This document shows, in pieces, positions 16,783-51,308 of a DNA stretch of 64,000 bases (positions within the stretch are counted from its first letter, which is position 1; each line of letters opens with the position of its first letter). Made by a program: the position numbers and the translations under genes. Location: positions 3,435,501 to 3,499,500 of the forward strand of contig NZ_CP020028.1 in the NCBI RefSeq assembly GCF_002240415.1. Direction: 5' to 3'. This DNA is from Paenibacillus kribbensis (lineage in GTDB: Bacteria > Bacillota > Bacilli > Paenibacillales > Paenibacillaceae). The notes below the pieces were generated by a model that was given only the letters and a program-made list of their open reading frames with translations, was not told where the DNA came from and did not search any database.

Positions 16783-17871
16783 TTATTTCACTTTACCTTT
16801 TAATTTATATACATACGCCAGCACTTCGGCAACGGCCTGAAACAGGTCAGCTGGTATCGCATCCCCGATTTCGGCTCTTTGAAACAGCGCCCGCGCCAGC
16901 GGCTTGTTTTCCATCGTTATAACGCCGTTTTGCTTGGCAATTTCCTTAATTCGGAGTGCTACGTAATCTTGCCCTTTCGCAATAATCTGAGGGGCTTCCA
17001 TCTCCGAACCGTCATATTTCAAAGCCACAGCAAAGTGCGTAGGGTTGGTGATGATGACATCTGCATTAGGAACTTCCTGCATCATACGCTGCATGGCCAT
17101 ACGGCGCTGCCGTTCGCGGATTTTCCCTTTGATCAGCGGGTCACCCTCCATTTTCTTGTACTCATCCTTGATGTCCTGTTTGGACATTCTCAGGTTTTTC
17201 TCATGTTCATAGCGTTGGTACATATAATCCAATACCGCTAAAATGAACAGCACCACGCCAATTTTAAGCCCCAGTTCCATCGTTAATGAAGCCGTGAAGC
17301 TCAACATTTGATCACCGGACATTTCAGCCAGTTTGGGTAGGTCTGCCTTTGTTTTCCAAAGTACGCTGTACACCAGATAACCAATCACGGTCATCTTTAA
17401 AACTGATTTCAGGAATTCGACCAATGACCTCATAGAAAAAATATTTTTGAATCCTTTAATCGGATCAATCTTGCTAAACTTGGGCGTAATGCCCTCTCCG
17501 GTTAATAAAAAACCGATCTGCATGTAATTCGCCGCTATCCCGATGACAATAGCCCCAATAAAAATAGGAGCCAGCATAATGATGATTTGCACGCCATACT
17601 CACCCATCATCAGCAGCGTTGTGTTTGGTGTTACCTCCATATTGAGGCGATTCATAAATATATCCCGAAACAAGCGAACCGCATGATCCTTAAAATACCC
17701 GCCGAACATCATAAGGCAAAAAAACGTAGCCAGCAAAACACCGGAGGCGGGCAACTCCATGCTTTTGGCAACCTGCCCTTTTTGTCTTGCATCCTGTTTC
17801 TTTTTGGGTGTAGCTTTTTCCGTTTTTTCCCCTGAGAACAACTGCAGGTTCATAGCATATTTAAATGACAA
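16783..17871 (-). CDS. flhB: Flagellar export switch protein FlhB
   Basis: Export gate component that switches substrate specificity from rod/hook to filament proteins. It starts MSFKYAMNLQLFSGEKTEKATPKKK, has four membrane helices, and a C-terminal domain with the autocleavage motif NPTH (about residues 276-279) followed by FAVALKYDG. I chose the TTG at 17871 because GGAGG lies 8 nt upstream. An in-frame ATG at 17895 (overlapping the fliR stop as TAATG) has no binding site and would add eight residues not expected in the family. The length is 362 aa. A paralogue of its C-terminal domain is encoded at 48806-49105. Confidence 0.95.
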   Translation of the reverse strand: MSFKYAMNLQLFSGEKTEKATPKKKQDARQKGQVAKSMELPASGVLLATFFCLMMFGGYFKDHAVRLFRDIFMNRLNMEVTPNTTLLMMGEYGVQIIIMLAPIFIGAIVIGIAANYMQIGFLLTGEGITPKFSKIDPIKGFKNIFSMRSLVEFLKSVLKMTVIGYLVYSVLWKTKADLPKLAEMSGDQMLSFTASLTMELGLKIGVVLFILAVLDYMYQRYEHEKNLRMSKQDIKDEYKKMEGDPLIKGKIRERQRRMAMQRMMQEVPNADVIITNPTHFAVALKYDGSEMEAPQIIAKGQDYVALRIKEIAKQNGVITMENKPLARALFQRAEIGDAIPADLFQAVAEVLAYVYKLKGKVK

Positions 17872-17894
17872 ACTACGTTCCTCCAGACCAGACA

Positions 17895-18680
17895 TTAAGG
17901 GCGGGTGCCCATAATATCCAATAAGTTGCGCATGGATTCGAACATCACAGAAAACAATTTTTCGAATATAAAAGCAAAACTTGGCATGAGAAGCAGCAAC
18001 ATGAACAATCCCACAATAATTTTAAGCGGTACACCAATGACAAAAATGTTAAACTGAGGCGCTGTTTTTGCTAAAAAGCCAAGGCCCACATCCGTCAGAA
18101 AAGTAGCCACTACAATGGGAGCAGCAATTTGGAAGGCCAGCAAAAAGGATTCCGCAAAGGTGCGTACCAGGAATTCAGTTACACTGCCGCCATACAGTTT
18201 CACAAAAAAATCATTTGTCAGCGGTACCCAATCATAGCTATATAAGATTGCATTCAGCAGGTGATGGTGCCCATTGATACTTAAAAAGAACAACACAGCT
18301 ATGGCAAACTTGAAATTCCCTGTTAAAGGCGTTGAAGCGCCTGTCATGGGATCGAACACGCTGGCCATCCCAAAACCTACCTGTAGATCAATAAATGAAC
18401 CGGCGGTCTGGATCGCTGTCATAAACAAATATGCAGTAAACCCCAACAGCAACCCAATCAGCACTTCACGACCTACTAACAGCACATATACAACATCGGT
18501 TGGTACCTGTTGATGTGTACCGTAGGTAAGATACACGACCAAAGCCAGAAATCCTGAAATTCCAACCTTATAGATATTAGGTACTCCTCGGGTTGAAAAG
18601 ATAGGTGCTACTACAAAAAACGAGGCAATCCGACAAAAAATCAGCAGAAAAACAGGAAAACTCTGTAACACCATGTTCAT
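17895..18680 (-). CDS. fliR: Flagellar export gate protein FliR
   Basis: Membrane subunit that, with FliP and FliQ, forms the export gate in the MS ring. The 261 aa have six hydrophobic segments, the VAPIFSTRGVPNIYKVG loop after helix 1, and the conserved GFGMASVFDP and FLTDVGLGFLAKTAPQFNIFVIG stretches. It follows fliQ by 10 nt and precedes flhB. Confidence 0.96.
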   Translation of the reverse strand: MNMVLQSFPVFLLIFCRIASFFVVAPIFSTRGVPNIYKVGISGFLALVVYLTYGTHQQVPTDVVYVLLVGREVLIGLLLGFTAYLFMTAIQTAGSFIDLQVGFGMASVFDPMTGASTPLTGNFKFAIAVLFFLSINGHHHLLNAILYSYDWVPLTNDFFVKLYGGSVTEFLVRTFAESFLLAFQIAAPIVVATFLTDVGLGFLAKTAPQFNIFVIGVPLKIIVGLFMLLLLMPSFAFIFEKLFSVMFESMRNLLDIMGTRP

Positions 18681-24677: not shown

Positions 24678-25058
24678 TTATGAAATAATTACGGCACTGT
24701 CTATTTGCGTAAATACGTTATCCTCCATGGACTGCTTGTCCATTGCTGTAACTACTGTCCGATTAGGCACACTTACAATCAAAGCCATATCCTGCATTAA
24801 AATCAATGATTCCTTGGCACCTTTGGCAGCCGCCTTATCGACAGCGGAGTTAATCTTTTCCATCTGATCGCTTCTCAACTCTATTCCTCGCTGCTCCAGC
24901 CGCTTGGCCGCATGATTGCTCAGCTTGACAACCTGTTCCTGCAGTACCTGATCGAATGGTTTGGCATTCTTCGGCACTGGATTAGTCCGGTTTTGCGGAA
25001 TCGCTGCCGGAGGAACATTGGCGGGAAAAAGGCGTCCAACCGTTATTCTGTCATTCAT
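24678..25058 (-). CDS. TIGR02530-type flagellar operon protein
   Basis: 126-aa protein with no known biochemical function, of a family found between flgD and the hook gene in many Firmicutes. The conserved segment is visible: PFDQVLQEQVVKLSNHAAKRL, then EQRGIELRSDQMEKINSAVDKAAAKG, then ESLILMQDMALIVSVPNRTVVTAMD. It is probably cytoplasmic and mostly helical. The start overlaps flgD by ATGA, with GGTGAG upstream. B. subtilis lacks it at this position. Recognition is by motif memory; a profile search would settle it. Confidence 0.8.
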   Translation of the reverse strand: MNDRITVGRLFPANVPPAAIPQNRTNPVPKNAKPFDQVLQEQVVKLSNHAAKRLEQRGIELRSDQMEKINSAVDKAAAKGAKESLILMQDMALIVSVPNRTVVTAMDKQSMEDNVFTQIDSAVIIS

Positions 25059-25607: not shown

Positions 25608-27065
25608 TTACGCTTGTGCTGTAAAGGAACCTGTCCGATTCACATCATCTGCGCGTTGTTCTGCTGTCCAGTTGCGCAGCTCTTCTGCCATTTCGGCTAC
25701 CTTCAAAGCATCCTCGTTCTCTTCTCTACTTTGAGCTTTGGAACGCTGGTTGGATTGCTGTTGTTGATTAGCACCGGAGCCGCGGCCATCCTGATACATA
25801 TGGGAGGAAAGTGATTCATTATGTGTTACTTCCACCTTATCAACCTGAATGCCCTGGCTTTGCAGGCTGGTACGCAGCTGCGACATTTGCTGTTCCAGCA
25901 AATCTTTCGCTCCGCTATGCTCTGTCATGAATTGGGCGACCAGATGACCATTCTGCATCGTCAGCTTAACTTCCAGCTGACCCAGATGTTCCGGACGAAG
26001 CATGATCGTAGCTTCCGTTAAACCGGAATGCTTTACAATATCAAGCTTCTGCACTACAAATTCAGTCATTTCCTTGGCAAATTGTCGTACATGCACAACA
26101 GGTTGGGCCGGAGCCGAAGGTGCTGTTCCTTGCGTCTGTACCGAAAGCTGTCCTGCAGTCGTGATCACTGGAGTCTGATTGTCAGTTACTGCCGGGTCTG
26201 CTTGCTCAGTTGCATCTACGAATGTACTAGATTCATCCGTTGCAGTCGCTTTAACTGCAGATTGAACATGCAGATTAGTGGATGAACGTTGTCCTTCTGA
26301 GCCTTGTTGACTCGTTCCACCTTGACTCGCTTGCTGCTCAGGAGCAACAACCTGTTTGTCAGTAGAAGCTACTGTCAATGTCTGAGTACCATTAGCACGA
26401 TTTGCAGAAGGCTGAGCAGCTTGTGAATCTCCAGCATCAGCGAGTTCCACAGCTTTCATCACACCATTCCACTGCTCATCGGAAATAGTTCCCGTACCAG
26501 CTGTCACGCTTTGAAGCGATTGTAGCAGCTGTGTCACCTGGGACTTTTGTTCTCCTGAAGCCTGCTCTGCTACATTAGCAAGCTGTGACAAAGCGTCCTG
26601 CAATGCAAATCGAAGAGTAGCCGGATTAGCTGCCAAAGCCGTTAAGCCTGTTGCCTCTGTCGTTTCTCCACCATCTGTCTGTTGGTTAGCTCCGCCGCCT
26701 TGCAAAAACTGTTGAACTTGCTGAATCCATGATTGCAGAGCTGCAAGCAAAGCAGGATCAGAAGCTACCTGATCATCCAGCTGCTCAAGATTTTGCAGCA
26801 AAGGAGCCAATGTTTCGACAAGCGGCTCGGATGGAGCTTCCAGAGATTCTCCAGCTGCAATAAGTGGAAGTACCATAACTAATGGAGAACCGTTAGCATC
26901 TGCCCCGGCTGAGCCCGTTTGCCCGCCTGTCATCATTTGCGTAAGTGTTTGATTAAACGCACCGTTTGCTGCTCCAGCTGCTGCTGTATTCGTTGTTGAT
27001 GCTGACGTCGTGCTACCCGCTGTCTGACTGGAACCAAGAGATACACTTTGAGAAATAAGGGTCAT
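25608..27065 (-). CDS. fliK: Flagellar hook-length control protein FliK
   Basis: 485-aa molecular ruler that measures the hook and triggers the FlhB switch. The N-terminal two thirds are low-complexity and rich in Gln, Thr, Ser and Ala, as expected of a secreted extended ruler. The C-terminal Flg_hook domain (about 350-440) shows LTEATIMLRPEHLGQLEVKL, then GHLVAQFMTE and LRTSLQSQGIQVDKVEV. The ATG at 27065 follows AAAGGAGGTGA. It lies between a MotE-like gene and flgD. Confidence 0.94.
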   Translation of the reverse strand: MTLISQSVSLGSSQTAGSTTSASTTNTAAAGAANGAFNQTLTQMMTGGQTGSAGADANGSPLVMVLPLIAAGESLEAPSEPLVETLAPLLQNLEQLDDQVASDPALLAALQSWIQQVQQFLQGGGANQQTDGGETTEATGLTALAANPATLRFALQDALSQLANVAEQASGEQKSQVTQLLQSLQSVTAGTGTISDEQWNGVMKAVELADAGDSQAAQPSANRANGTQTLTVASTDKQVVAPEQQASQGGTSQQGSEGQRSSTNLHVQSAVKATATDESSTFVDATEQADPAVTDNQTPVITTAGQLSVQTQGTAPSAPAQPVVHVRQFAKEMTEFVVQKLDIVKHSGLTEATIMLRPEHLGQLEVKLTMQNGHLVAQFMTEHSGAKDLLEQQMSQLRTSLQSQGIQVDKVEVTHNESLSSHMYQDGRGSGANQQQQSNQRSKAQSREENEDALKVAEMAEELRNWTAEQRADDVNRTGSFTAQA

Positions 27066-27091: not shown

Positions 27092-28078
27092 TTACTTGCT
27101 GCCCATCAGCTTGTTCAAAATTTTTGCGGTCTGTCCTGCATCCTTGGCAGACATATTTTGCAGTAAAGAAGCACGTGTTGAATCATCTACTGTATTTAAT
27201 ATGTTTAACGCCTTGTCCGGACTGATTTTATAAGTTTGTAAAATAAGTTCAGCACCGCTTTTCTTGTCCATGGAAGCAAATGTGCTGCTGATTTGAGTGT
27301 TTTGCAAGCTTTTACTCGTCGATCCCGCTGTACTGCTTTGATCCTTTTTCAGACGGGACTGCAACGCAGCTACTGACAAATCCGTGGATGGTGTAATATT
27401 TTTCAGAGCCATGGTAATATCGGCTGCCTTTTTGGCATCCATCTTTTGCAGGATTTTCGCACTGTTTGCAGGGTCCATGTAGCTTAACAGTTGTACAGTT
27501 TCTTCCGTAGTCAGGTTTTCCATGATCGGTGCCGCCTTGCTTGCTGTCATTCCTTCATACATGGAAGCGAGATCCTTCGCCTGCTTTACATATGGATCTT
27601 CATTCGCTGTTCCGCTAGCAGTAGCACCTGCGGCTTGCGTGCCTGTCTGTCCCTGCTGACCGGCCTGTGTCTGTTGCATTTGCAGCGAATTGACTTGATT
27701 CTGCAGTTCTGTAACCTTTTTATCCTGGGCCGTTTTGGCAGCGGAAGCCTTTTTAAGCTCCTCCGTCTGTTTGGCCAAATCTGTCTTTAACTGCTGTATG
27801 GTTGCTTCAGAACTTTCAGACTGGGCCTTCTGATCTGCCTCTTTCGTCTGAGCAGCCTTATCTTTTGATTCAGGAAGCCAATTTTTCACAATTGGAATTT
27901 TGTTCCCCAATGAAATCATTTCGCTTCTGAAATCCATATTGAACAGTGTAAGCAGGACCCCGACCAGAACGATTGTGAAAACAATCGGAATCAGGAAAAA
28001 CATAAACCGTTCAAATCCCCCGCCTGATTCTTTTTCTAAATCCATATCCAGTTCATTATCTGCTAACTTCTGTGCCAT
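27092..28078 (-). CDS. MotE-like membrane protein with MgtE N-terminal-like repeats
   Basis: 328-aa protein at the ylxF position. It has a cytoplasmic N-terminus, one membrane helix (about 26-46), a coiled coil (about 85-135, LKTDLAKQTEELKKASAAK then KVTELQNQVNSLQ), a Gln/Gly/Thr linker, and a C-terminal region with two MgtE_N-like units (SMYEGMTASKAAPIMENLTTEE ... ILQKMDAKKAADIT and MDKKSGAELILQTYKISPDKA). MotE relatives couple to the stator or act as FliG-like scaffolds; the MgtE_N fold resembles FliG armadillo repeats. A role in motor function is inferred. Confidence 0.82.
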   Translation of the reverse strand: MAQKLADNELDMDLEKESGGGFERFMFFLIPIVFTIVLVGVLLTLFNMDFRSEMISLGNKIPIVKNWLPESKDKAAQTKEADQKAQSESSEATIQQLKTDLAKQTEELKKASAAKTAQDKKVTELQNQVNSLQMQQTQAGQQGQTGTQAAGATASGTANEDPYVKQAKDLASMYEGMTASKAAPIMENLTTEETVQLLSYMDPANSAKILQKMDAKKAADITMALKNITPSTDLSVAALQSRLKKDQSSTAGSTSKSLQNTQISSTFASMDKKSGAELILQTYKISPDKALNILNTVDDSTRASLLQNMSAKDAGQTAKILNKLMGSK

Positions 28079-48422: not shown

Positions 48423-48806
48423 TTAAAACGCATTGATGAAATGGTCCGTAACAACAGCCGCTTCGTCGGTTAATCGTACAGCAAGCATATCAAAACGAAT
48501 TGGAGCATCTCCAATCCCGTTCATATGCAAATATACGGAGGCTGTTTGGCGAACCTGGGTTATTTTACGCGCGGTGACCGATTCTGCTGGCGTTCCATAC
48601 TTGGAGCTGCTTCGACTACGTACTTCAATAAACACAAGTGTGTCCTCCTGCTTGGCAATCAAATCCAGTTCACCACTGCGGCAACGCCAATTACGCGCTA
48701 TGATTTGATAACCCAGCTCCTCCAAAAATAAAGCCGCTGCCTGTTCACCCATCGTCCCTTTAGCTTTCCGTCGATCCTTGCCTCCGGTCCTCATTTCATT
48801 TCCCAT
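48423..48806 (-). CDS. yraN: YraN / UPF0102 endonuclease-fold protein
   Basis: 127-aa protein of the UPF0102 family with a restriction-endonuclease-like fold: GEQAAALFLEELGYQIIARNWR, GELDLIAKQEDTLVFIEVRSRS with the D...ExK-type catalytic motif, and RKITQVRQTA. The nucleic acid substrate is unknown. The start is uncertain: GTG 48809, ATG 48806 (sharing a base with the ylqH stop) or an ATG four codons later. It ends a ylqG-ylqH-yraN transcription unit. In B. subtilis this gene is not at this locus. Confidence 0.9.
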   Translation of the reverse strand: MGNEMRTGGKDRRKAKGTMGEQAAALFLEELGYQIIARNWRCRSGELDLIAKQEDTLVFIEVRSRSSSKYGTPAESVTARKITQVRQTASVYLHMNGIGDAPIRFDMLAVRLTDEAAVVTDHFINAF

Positions 48807-49105
48807 CACCTGTCATCCATCGGAGCAAGCCTGTCCATTTGATATATATAGGTAAGCACCTCTGCTACCAAATGATAGAGCTCTGCCGGAATTTGCTCGT
48901 CCAAATCCAGCTTGGACAATACCTCAACCAGCGCGGCATCCTCCTGTACAGGAACACCATGCTCTTTGGCTTTTTCTAAAATGCTTTCCGCAACGCGGCC
49001 GCTCCCCTTGGCAACGACAATCGGGGCTTCGTTCTCACCGGGCGTATATTTGAGGGCGACTGCCTTCTTCCTGGAAGGAGAGGGAGCTTCCAACGGCTCT
49101 TTCAT
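48806..49105 (-). CDS. FlhB C-terminal-domain-like protein (YlqH family)
   Basis: 99-aa cytoplasmic protein equivalent to the part of FlhB downstream of the autocleavage site. It has KAVALKYTPGENEAPIVVAKGSG, then ESILEKAKEHGVPV, then DLDEQIPAELYHLVAEVLTYIYQMD, which line up with the FlhB of this genome from AVALKY to AEVLAYVYKL. The NPTH motif and the membrane domain are absent. Such orphan FlhB-like proteins are conserved beside a FliK-like gene but have no proven function. It overlaps ylqG by 4 nt, so the pair is coupled. Confidence 0.88.
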   Translation of the reverse strand: MKEPLEAPSPSRKKAVALKYTPGENEAPIVVAKGSGRVAESILEKAKEHGVPVQEDAALVEVLSKLDLDEQIPAELYHLVAEVLTYIYQMDRLAPMDDR

Positions 49106-51222
49106 ATTTTAAGATCGACTCCTTTATACGGCTGAGGTACATAGCTTTGTACCTCAGAAGAAACGGTGCTGTCCGGTTCAGTCCTAATCGGCATAGACTC
49201 GGTACGAAGCGATAGAAGCTGGTATCCTAATGACTCCAAAGCCGTATTTAGGGATTCACGTCCGCTGGTTAACAGCGAAGCGACCCACTCCTGATCATTA
49301 TGGAGCTTGAGACTCACAATTCGGTCCACGACTTGTACGTCCACCAACGTCGGTCCAAGCCCCTTCATGTCCAGATCAAACCAAAGACGACAATTGGATG
49401 AATCCAGCTCCCCTCGTTTGCCACGACGAGACTGAATCTGAATGGTAGCTGTTTCACGACCGTCCGGTCCGACAAACGGAATAAACATGTGTACTTGTGC
49501 AAAAGGGGCCGTGCGATCGGTATTTAGCAGCAGCTGCTGACCCGTCAGGTGCTGTACGACCTGCTGGGCCGCCTCTTTCAAAGCGGGTGGCAGGTCATCG
49601 CTGCTCATCAGCTGGAGCAGCGCCCCTTTTACGGTGTCTGCATCTGCCGACACCGTGCCGCCTGCCGCAGCTGCTAACCCCGGCAGCGGCTGCGGCGCTC
49701 CCTCCGGCGGCTTCGAAGCTGCCGCCGCCCCTTGCGCGGGTTGTGCAGCCGCGCGGTGTACCTGCTGCTCGTGCTCTGCACCGAGCAGCTTTAGCACGCG
49801 GCCCACCCACGCGGCCTCCGTGGGGGTGAGCTGCGTGCTGGACGCTACAGACGCCGCGGGCTGCGAAGCAGCGGTGTCTGTAGCCCGCGGAGCGCTCGCG
49901 GCCAGCTGCGACGCTTCCGCCGCGGGCTGCTCCGGCGCAGCCGTGCCCAGCGCAGGAGGCACGGCTGCGCGCAGCTCTTGCAGCAGCGTGCGCAGCCGCT
50001 GGAGCGGTGCCTCTGCCGCAGCGGCGTTGCCCGCCGCGGATTGCGGCACAGGGCCGCCAGCCGGCTGTGCAGCTGCGCGTTCAGCTGTAGCAGCGGTTGC
50101 CGCTGGCTTCACGTCGGTAGCCTCTGTCGTTGCCGCTGCTGAAGCGCCACCAGCATCCTTAAGCTGCGTGGCTGTCGTGACACCCGGCTGTTCCGCTTTG
50201 GCACGGGAGCCGCTTAATGCGTCAGCGCCCGATTCAGGCGCATTTGCGCCAGCGTCCGAAGCAACTGTCGCTCCACGCCCCTTAGCTGCCTCCGCTTCTT
50301 CTGGAGCAGTCCCTAGCGCCCGAGCTACAGCCCCGGTCGGAGCATCCGGTTCAGTAGCCACAGCATCCGCTTCATTCCCCGCAGCAGCAGCAAGGTTGGC
50401 TGCTTGAGTCCCTTTCAGCAATTCCTTGCCTCCTGCTGCTTGTCCGGCTTCTGCCTGCTTAGCAGCAGCAGAGGCATCCTTGGACAATACAGGGGCCTGG
50501 GCTTCCGGTGCATCTGCTATCCCTGTGCTGGAAGCACCTGCTGAACTAGCTGATGCTTGGTCAGCTCCCTTTACCGCTGTTGCTTCCCTCACTGGCTGGT
50601 CTGTAGATGTTGCTCCTTGTCCTAGCTGCTTTAATACCGTTTCAAGCTCCTGCTCCAGCGATGACAGCAAATTATTTAAAGGAGGACCAAACATCGCTTG
50701 CCGCAAGCCGTTAATGCTTTCAGCCGTCAATGGAAGTCCCCGCTGAAAAGCAACCGCCGCCGCCTGTACAAACGTTCCTAATTCTACATTGCCAGGTTGC
50801 TTTGCCAAGGCATTTTGCAAAGAAGAGGCATTTTCCGATGTCAATGGCACACCATTTTTTTGCATGGCCTGGATAAGCGCTCTGTTCTGAACTGTATCCG
50901 GCAGTCCCACCGATTCCAATACATCTGCGAGAGCTACGGTTTGCTGTGGTGCATTAGCTGCATCGTTCAAAGGTTTAAGCACCGTCATTCCACTGGGCGA
51001 AGCCGGTTGTACCTGAAATGTTGTAGTCTGTCCAGGCTGAAGAGGGGTTTCCAGCTTTGCCCTGACTTGAGAGCCTTGTATTTGCAGCACAGCCTCACCA
51101 CCGTCCTCAGACACCTTTAATACGACGCCCCTTACGACTTGACCTGGCTGCATATCGAGCTTTTTGACCTCTCCCGCCTTCACATCACCAAGTAATCCAC
51201 GAAATACAGATCCGATGTTCAT
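49102..51222 (-). CDS. Orphan FliK-like protein (YlqG family)
   Basis: 706-aa protein. The N-terminal 75 residues form a small beta domain (LDMQPGQVVRGVVLKVSEDGGEAVLQIQGSQVRAKL, in segments). The middle (about 190-540) is very Ala-, Gln- and Pro-rich with markedly high GC and looks disordered. The C-terminal 140 residues are a Flg_hook/FliK-like domain (VHMFIPFVGPDG, CRLWFDLDMKGLGPTLVDVQV, ESLNTALESLGYQLLSL). It differs from the operon fliK in length and N-terminus. The start ATG at 51222 follows GGAGGGG; seven codons upstream are unsupported. It is coupled to the FlhB-like gene. Confidence 0.85.
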   Translation of the reverse strand: MNIGSVFRGLLGDVKAGEVKKLDMQPGQVVRGVVLKVSEDGGEAVLQIQGSQVRAKLETPLQPGQTTTFQVQPASPSGMTVLKPLNDAANAPQQTVALADVLESVGLPDTVQNRALIQAMQKNGVPLTSENASSLQNALAKQPGNVELGTFVQAAAVAFQRGLPLTAESINGLRQAMFGPPLNNLLSSLEQELETVLKQLGQGATSTDQPVREATAVKGADQASASSAGASSTGIADAPEAQAPVLSKDASAAAKQAEAGQAAGGKELLKGTQAANLAAAAGNEADAVATEPDAPTGAVARALGTAPEEAEAAKGRGATVASDAGANAPESGADALSGSRAKAEQPGVTTATQLKDAGGASAAATTEATDVKPAATAATAERAAAQPAGGPVPQSAAGNAAAAEAPLQRLRTLLQELRAAVPPALGTAAPEQPAAEASQLAASAPRATDTAASQPAASVASSTQLTPTEAAWVGRVLKLLGAEHEQQVHRAAAQPAQGAAAASKPPEGAPQPLPGLAAAAGGTVSADADTVKGALLQLMSSDDLPPALKEAAQQVVQHLTGQQLLLNTDRTAPFAQVHMFIPFVGPDGRETATIQIQSRRGKRGELDSSNCRLWFDLDMKGLGPTLVDVQVVDRIVSLKLHNDQEWVASLLTSGRESLNTALESLGYQLLSLRTESMPIRTEPDSTVSSEVQSYVPQPYKGVDLKI

Positions 51223-51278
51223 ATCGCCCCTCCTCTCCTTCATCCCTCTATCAAAAGGGTCTATTTTATTGGGTATAC

Positions 51279-51308
51279 ATTATATCGGCATAGTCCCGTT
51301 TCGTAATA
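51279..51308 (-). promoter_or_regulatory. Candidate promoter of ylqG-ylqH with SigD-like -10
   Basis: Minus strand: GCCGATAT (51282-51289) is an exact copy of the SigD/FliA -10 consensus, 60 nt upstream of the ylqG ATG. At the N15 position upstream lies TATT, a poor match to TAAA. The same bases also contain TATAAT (51279-51284), a SigA -10, with a weak TTACGA -35. Either or both sigma factors could use it. Confidence 0.45.

Follow-up and report, generated by a model that had tools for sequence, protein, structure and literature searches.

The ylqG-ylqH locus

A 64,000-nt stretch of Paenibacillus kribbensis (contig NZ_CP020028.1), referred to here as the window, encodes on its minus strand a FliK-like and an FlhB-like protein in adjoining genes that we take to be ylqG and ylqH. 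The pair is located between the genes for RNase HII and UPF0102. The gene order, from Pfam matches and open reading frame (ORF) positions, is ribosomal protein L19, signal peptidase, GTPase, RNase HII, ylqG, ylqH, UPF0102, nitroreductase and Mg-chelatase-like (presumably rplS, lepB, rbgA, rnhB, ylqG, ylqH, yraN and comM, where names can be given). A first-pass annotation had described the two genes as paralogues of fliK and flhB that overlap by 4 nt and lie 15-33 kb from the fla/che operon. The window does contain a separate true FlhB and a separate true FliK; genome-wide, Bac_export_2 is matched twice, by FlhB and by YlqH. The pair lies among housekeeping genes, and from its start the distance is 22 kb to fliK and 31 kb to flhB; measured to these two genes, the range given fits. 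The 4-nt overlap was identified as described, and occurs in 14 of the 67 loci for which spacing was scored. The longest ylqG open frame spans 49102-51243 on the minus strand (713 aa). We prefer the start at 51222, and thus the 706 aa previously assigned, because a strong ribosome-binding site precedes it and the closest database protein is also 706 aa long.

YlqH matches the Pfam family Bac_export_2 (the FlhB family) with an E value of 5.6e-21 and 75.6 bits, above the curated cut-off of 24.4. The match is confined to profile positions 262-335 of 335, as expected from the earlier description of a C-terminal part alone. Lacking are the membrane half and the NPTH autocleavage site of a full FlhB, and NPTH was found in none of 196 YlqH sequences. 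The fold, the start point and the early-substrate docking pocket are those of FlhB-CCD (the cleaved C-terminal piece of FlhB), and the pocket residues are near-invariant across relatives. Unlike FlhB-CCD, YlqH is a separate gene product, lacks beta1 and has altered charges. The NCBIfam model TIGR00789 (flhB_rel) gives 109.6 bits over residues 12-91, under its curated cut-off of 117.35, and is matched above cut-off in just 3 of the 398 Bacillota genomes of our phylum sample. Among the TIGR00789 matches listed, all open frames are 84-163 aa except one of 362 aa (G320).

Free FlhB C-terminal domains are already known and named. YlqH relatives carry the names FhlB domain, flhB_rel and FlhX, and we take COG2257 to be the YlqH type. 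FlhX/HP1575 of Campylobacterota is likewise a lone FlhB C-terminal domain alongside a full FlhB, a likeness to YlqH that is by description rather than by sequence comparison. In H. pylori, a free homologue of the FlhB C-terminus reportedly acts as a spare part (title of Wand et al. 2006). An OB-domain partner is not among the descriptions of FlhX/HP1575 found, which are partial ones. One account lists FlhX among export proteins and places flhX-fliK of Nitratiruptor outside the main cluster (PMC9321776).

YlqG shares its C-terminal tail, and by prediction its switch domain, with FliK, the flagellar hook-length control protein. Unlike FliK, it has an OB-like and helical N-terminus of its own, and its gene is away from fliK and flhB and adjoins ylqH. 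The match to Flg_hook (FliK) is weak, at 18.9 bits under a cut-off of 29.8. Across 33 aligned YlqG-type proteins, 19 match Flg_hook at E <= 0.01 (best 4e-13), and the predicted YlqG model matches the switch domains of FliK and PscP. Searched as a whole against the PDB, the model matched nothing at E <= 0.001, a search that did not take the helical domain by itself. The N-terminal beta domain that had been called novel is indeed present, and structure prediction points to an OB-like barrel. In 19 aligned sequences, the majority fraction is 0.78 for the last eight residues, 0.77 for the switch domain, 0.74 for the barrel and 0.30 for the linker.

In databases, many YlqG relatives carry the name DNA ligase, which we reject: no ligase family was matched in Pfam or NCBIfam at E <= 0.1, and the label looks like a propagated misannotation. 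Weak matches to DUF6240 (PF19753), below the family cut-off in the window, were found in a TIGR02530 flagellar protein (24678-25058) and in the helical part of YlqG. B. subtilis has both ylqG and ylqH. In that species, the substitution P457Q in ylqG is recorded in several swarming-evolution clones, alongside other mutations (PMC11523185). A further 4-nt overlap (48806-48809) joins ylqH to the UPF0102 gene. The strand opposite the Ala-rich linker has a 257-aa open frame (49634-50407), probably a mere by-product of GC-rich codons.

Table 1. Features of the ylqG-ylqH locus and comparison genes, in window coordinates.
Feature	Position	Strand	Remark
ylqH-like gene, 99 aa; free-standing FlhB C-terminal cleavage domain (FlhB-CCD)	48806..49105	-	ORF
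FlhB-CCD domain of YlqH, residues 15-87	48845..49063	-	early-substrate pocket A, P, A, L retained
ylqG-like gene, 706 aa; FliK-family paralogue	49102..51222	-	N-terminus of its own
ATGA, ylqG stop/ylqH start overlap	49102..49105	-	4 nt
Conserved C-terminal tail GVDLKI of YlqG	49105..49122	-	
FliK-type switch domain (T3S4, predicted) of YlqG, residues 573-676	49195..49506	-	
Ala-rich linker of YlqG, residues 207-530	49633..50604	-	predicted mostly disordered, pLDDT mostly <50; poorly conserved
Helical domain of YlqG, residues 98-205	50608..50931	-	weak DUF6240 similarity
OB-like barrel (predicted) of YlqG, residues 22-94	50941..51159	-	
Sigma-D-like promoter element	51282..51308	-	exact -10 GCCGATAT, weak -35; 59 nt before ylqG ATG
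True FlhB, comparison gene	16783..17895	-	with NPTH site
True FliK of flagellar operon	25608..27065	-	C-terminus TGSFTAQA, no tail motif

Conservation of the pair and co-occurrence with FlhB

An ORF lies directly upstream of ylqH in 112 of 116 Bacillota loci, and FliK-like partners of ylqH recur in Nitrospirota, Desulfobacterota and others. We compiled a multi-phylum set of 80 named loci, Bacillota included, which are the best 80 of at least 582 matches and not a random sample. Flg_hook is matched by 50 of the 66 longer upstream ORFs of this set; among those without a match, a few are plainly different genes. Judged by sequence, the ylqG-ylqH pair is ancient and widespread and no oddity of the window's genome, so the earlier view of a coupled, matched pair holds well beyond it. 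Natural YlqG-YlqH fusions were sought in the 80 loci, and the two long frames that appeared as candidates (L210 and L220) were discarded, since in each case the frame overlaps an upstream ORF that is separate.

The distribution follows that of FlhB. In the phylum sample, 330 genomes have a Bac_export_2 match (by hand count, 93 have one and 237 two or more) and 68 have none; three of the 93 (G024, G220 and G323) lack a full FlhB match. A second FlhB-family match is present in 237 of the 327 FlhB-positive genomes versus a free CCD in 1 of the 71 others, and that one genome (G323) is an assembly of about 510 contigs. Four genomes with two or more matches (G023, G116, G119 and G341) have a weak best match and probably carry broken FlhB genes. 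In a class sample of 151 genomes, likewise counted by hand, 37 lack a match; of the other 114, 14 have a single one and 100 have more. The first-pass annotation had proposed profiling against flagellar genes as a check; by FlhB, the pair follows flagella.

The most telling feature of YlqG is its C-terminus, which we scored with the rule [VILFMY][DN][VILFYWMT]x[VILAM]-end. Among the relatives listed, the motif is found in 111 of 111 of at least 550 aa. It ends 67 of 78 upstream ORFs at 81 ylqH loci (the window and 80 Bacillota; three have no upstream ORF) versus 2 of 175 other open frames of the same strand. In the multi-phylum set, 73 loci have an upstream ORF, and the motif occurs in 42 of these versus 4 of 609 others. 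The tail of YlqG, GVDLKI, is of the FliK type and resembles the C-terminus of E. coli FliK, GVDIFA. In FliK, one study assigns importance for switching to residues 301-350 and to the final five residues (PMC10965912). The tail (h-D-h-x-h) also resembles the beta1 strand of FlhB, ADV[VI][IV], which precedes NPTH and is absent from YlqH. Of 61 frames counted, with some genomes represented twice, 59 have ADV[VI][IV]T directly ahead of NPTH and the other two have ATVVVT.

Expression was approached through the sigma-D consensus, TAAA-N15-GCCGATAT (PMC5200910). A loose pattern (at most two mismatches) has 10 sites in the window versus 5.1 expected, so the site before ylqG is weak evidence on its own. 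Exact GCCGATAT occurs at five sites in the window versus 1.6 expected; one of them (27417-27424, minus strand) lies within the ORF just upstream of fliK. CCGATA[AT] is found in the last 120 nt before ylqG at 11 of the 30 best-matching family loci, in five genera including that of the window; shuffling gives 0.55 on average and at most 3, and the density further upstream predicts 1.4. At one locus (L398) the sigma-D pattern is matched at 12 of 12 positions with a spacing of 16. A family-wide sigma-D promoter is rejected, since only these 11 loci, and 1 of 8 in the window's genus, have the element. The main text of a B. amyloliquefaciens SigD study does not contain 'ylq'.

Possible roles at the flagellar export gate

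The computed co-occurrence with FlhB, the early-substrate pocket, the FliK-type tail and the sigma-D-like element in part of the family together argue for a flagellar role, and the pair probably acts on the hook-to-filament switch. The first-pass annotation had left a choice between a second switch, a modulator of the export gate and a non-flagellar secretion role; a flagellar role is favoured over a non-flagellar one, and it may be that of a second switch or that of a modulator. Our leading reading, which we hold tentatively and at somewhat short of even confidence, is that the two proteins form a satellite to the flagellar export switch: YlqH would be a spare FlhB-CCD acting in trans at the gate, and YlqG its FliK-derived handler.

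According to a 2026 paper that proposed the ejection of FlhB-CCD, this domain holds the export gate in early mode and FliK ejects it (PMC13344023). YlqH is predicted to fold like the cleaved piece and keeps the pocket where rod and hook subunits dock. We infer contact between YlqG and YlqH, in which YlqG would bind through its switch domain and tail, and the complex would bring YlqH to export gates. There, YlqH would replace the FlhB-CCD ejected by FliK, and new or prematurely emptied gates would thereby remain in, or revert to, hook mode. Because the tail resembles FlhB beta1, which YlqH lacks, the tail may fill the beta1 place as a donated strand. A device that resupplies or resets the gate would be consistent with a free FlhB-CCD whose pocket is intact and whose partner has a FliK-type domain and tail. 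These components would serve just as well if YlqG were a trigger and YlqH the brake on it.

Several observations weigh against the satellite reading. The single match in 93 of 330 genomes means that the pair is dispensable for flagella. At two positions of FlhB the charge is reversed in YlqH, with E in place of E. coli R319 in 112 of 196 sequences and D in place of K350 in 104 of 196, so YlqH may not fit the FlhB seat. What the tail and beta1 have in common is one Asp within a generic strand pattern. The tail motif is lacking in 31 of the 73 multi-phylum upstream ORFs, some of which are other genes, and YlqG of families f144 (0 of 10) and f35 (0 of 2) has lost it. The sigma-D-like element is missing from 19 of the 30 relatives, among them 7 of the 8 that belong to the window's genus.

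A bolder reading, which we regard as quite unlikely, makes the switch a strand-exchange device: the FliK tail would mimic FlhB beta1 and pull FlhB-CCD off the gate. YlqG and YlqH, a second copy of both halves in many bacteria, would be preassembled by strand donation and would supply the domain anew. Where FliK of Bacilli has no tail, that of YlqG would be the trigger, with ruler and trigger being two proteins.

The strongest competitor, itself unlikely on balance, holds that in Bacilli like that of the window the trigger tail moved from the ruler to YlqG, so that YlqG would eject FlhB-CCD and YlqH would be a decoy holding YlqG until hook completion. The distribution of tails by family speaks for it. 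In the window's family the tail is present in 0 of 12 operon FliK and 3 of 3 YlqG loci, and the same holds for f2 (0 of 3 and 3 of 3) and mostly for f148 (1 of 6 and 7 of 7); in f158 FliK is mixed (4 of 10, with YlqG 6 of 6). The reverse is seen in f144 and f35, whose FliK keeps the tail (7 of 9 and 5 of 5). Of 51 genomes in which both genes were read, 48 have at least one tail (both in 20, YlqG only in 20, FliK only in 8, neither in 3). Against the split trigger, complementarity over these genomes is not significant (Fisher p = 0.31), and 20 of them have both tails. A further 20 flagellated genomes without YlqH, each with a single FlhB-family match (9 of the 14 such genomes of the class sample and 11 of the 93 of the phylum sample), yielded 19 FliK, 13 of them tailed, and a pooled p of 0.14; the other six fail the tail rule, one of them, ending VDCVA, nearly passing. 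The FliK tail is also kept in one single-match genome outside these 20 (G356). Thus, tail exchange is a family-level pattern and no proven rule. Polyhooks are formed by B. subtilis fliK mutants, so FliK still switches in that species, which also counts against a trigger moved to YlqG.

Both can be absent: five genomes of families f161 and f157 (L352-L356) have FlhB but no second FlhB-family match and no tail on FliK, so that neither is a strict requirement. A strict rule of at least one tail per genome is rejected, both for want of significance and because the f161/f157 genomes read have neither.

It is very unlikely that YlqG has a non-flagellar role, for example as an RNA- or DNA-binding protein linked to the adjoining ribosome and RNase genes. 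The OB-like barrel and the neighbours (ribosomal protein L19, signal peptidase, GTPase, RNase HII and UPF0102) would suit such a role, against which stands the co-occurrence with FlhB. RNase HII, moreover, has a tblastn match in just 12 of the 56 multi-phylum loci longer than 9 kb (11 Bacillota and 1 Calditrichales), so the neighbourhood is mostly not kept. Highly improbable is a second, secreted ruler or hook-length protein, as the FliK-like switch domain and long disordered linker of YlqG might suggest. The OB and helical profiles match none of 84 operon FliK, and open-frame length ranges from 153 to 856 aa over 112 loci (the shortest possibly partial), unlike a ruler; a tape-measure role is unlikely because the N-terminal domains are absent from FliK and the length varies so widely. 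Functionless, decaying paralogues would agree with the dispensability of the pair in some flagellated lineages, and can nearly be dismissed given the near-invariant pocket of YlqH, the tail motif in all 111 listed YlqG relatives of at least 550 aa and the presence of the YlqG N-terminus in 78 of 78 genomes of the window's family.

Meaning for the flagellar switch

Our literature search, which covered few subscription papers, found no function for ylqG or ylqH and no description of the conserved pair, the OB-like domain, the FliK tail or the tail exchange. The mechanism by which FliK flips FlhB has long been debated. Here nature offers, in tractable bacteria, a free FlhB-CCD together with its own FliK-like partner, and thus a soluble model of the FlhB-CCD ejection step that is ready for use. 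Should the pair act at the gate, the switch may be one that can be reversed or resupplied, a point of consequence for cells whose many flagella are built at different times.
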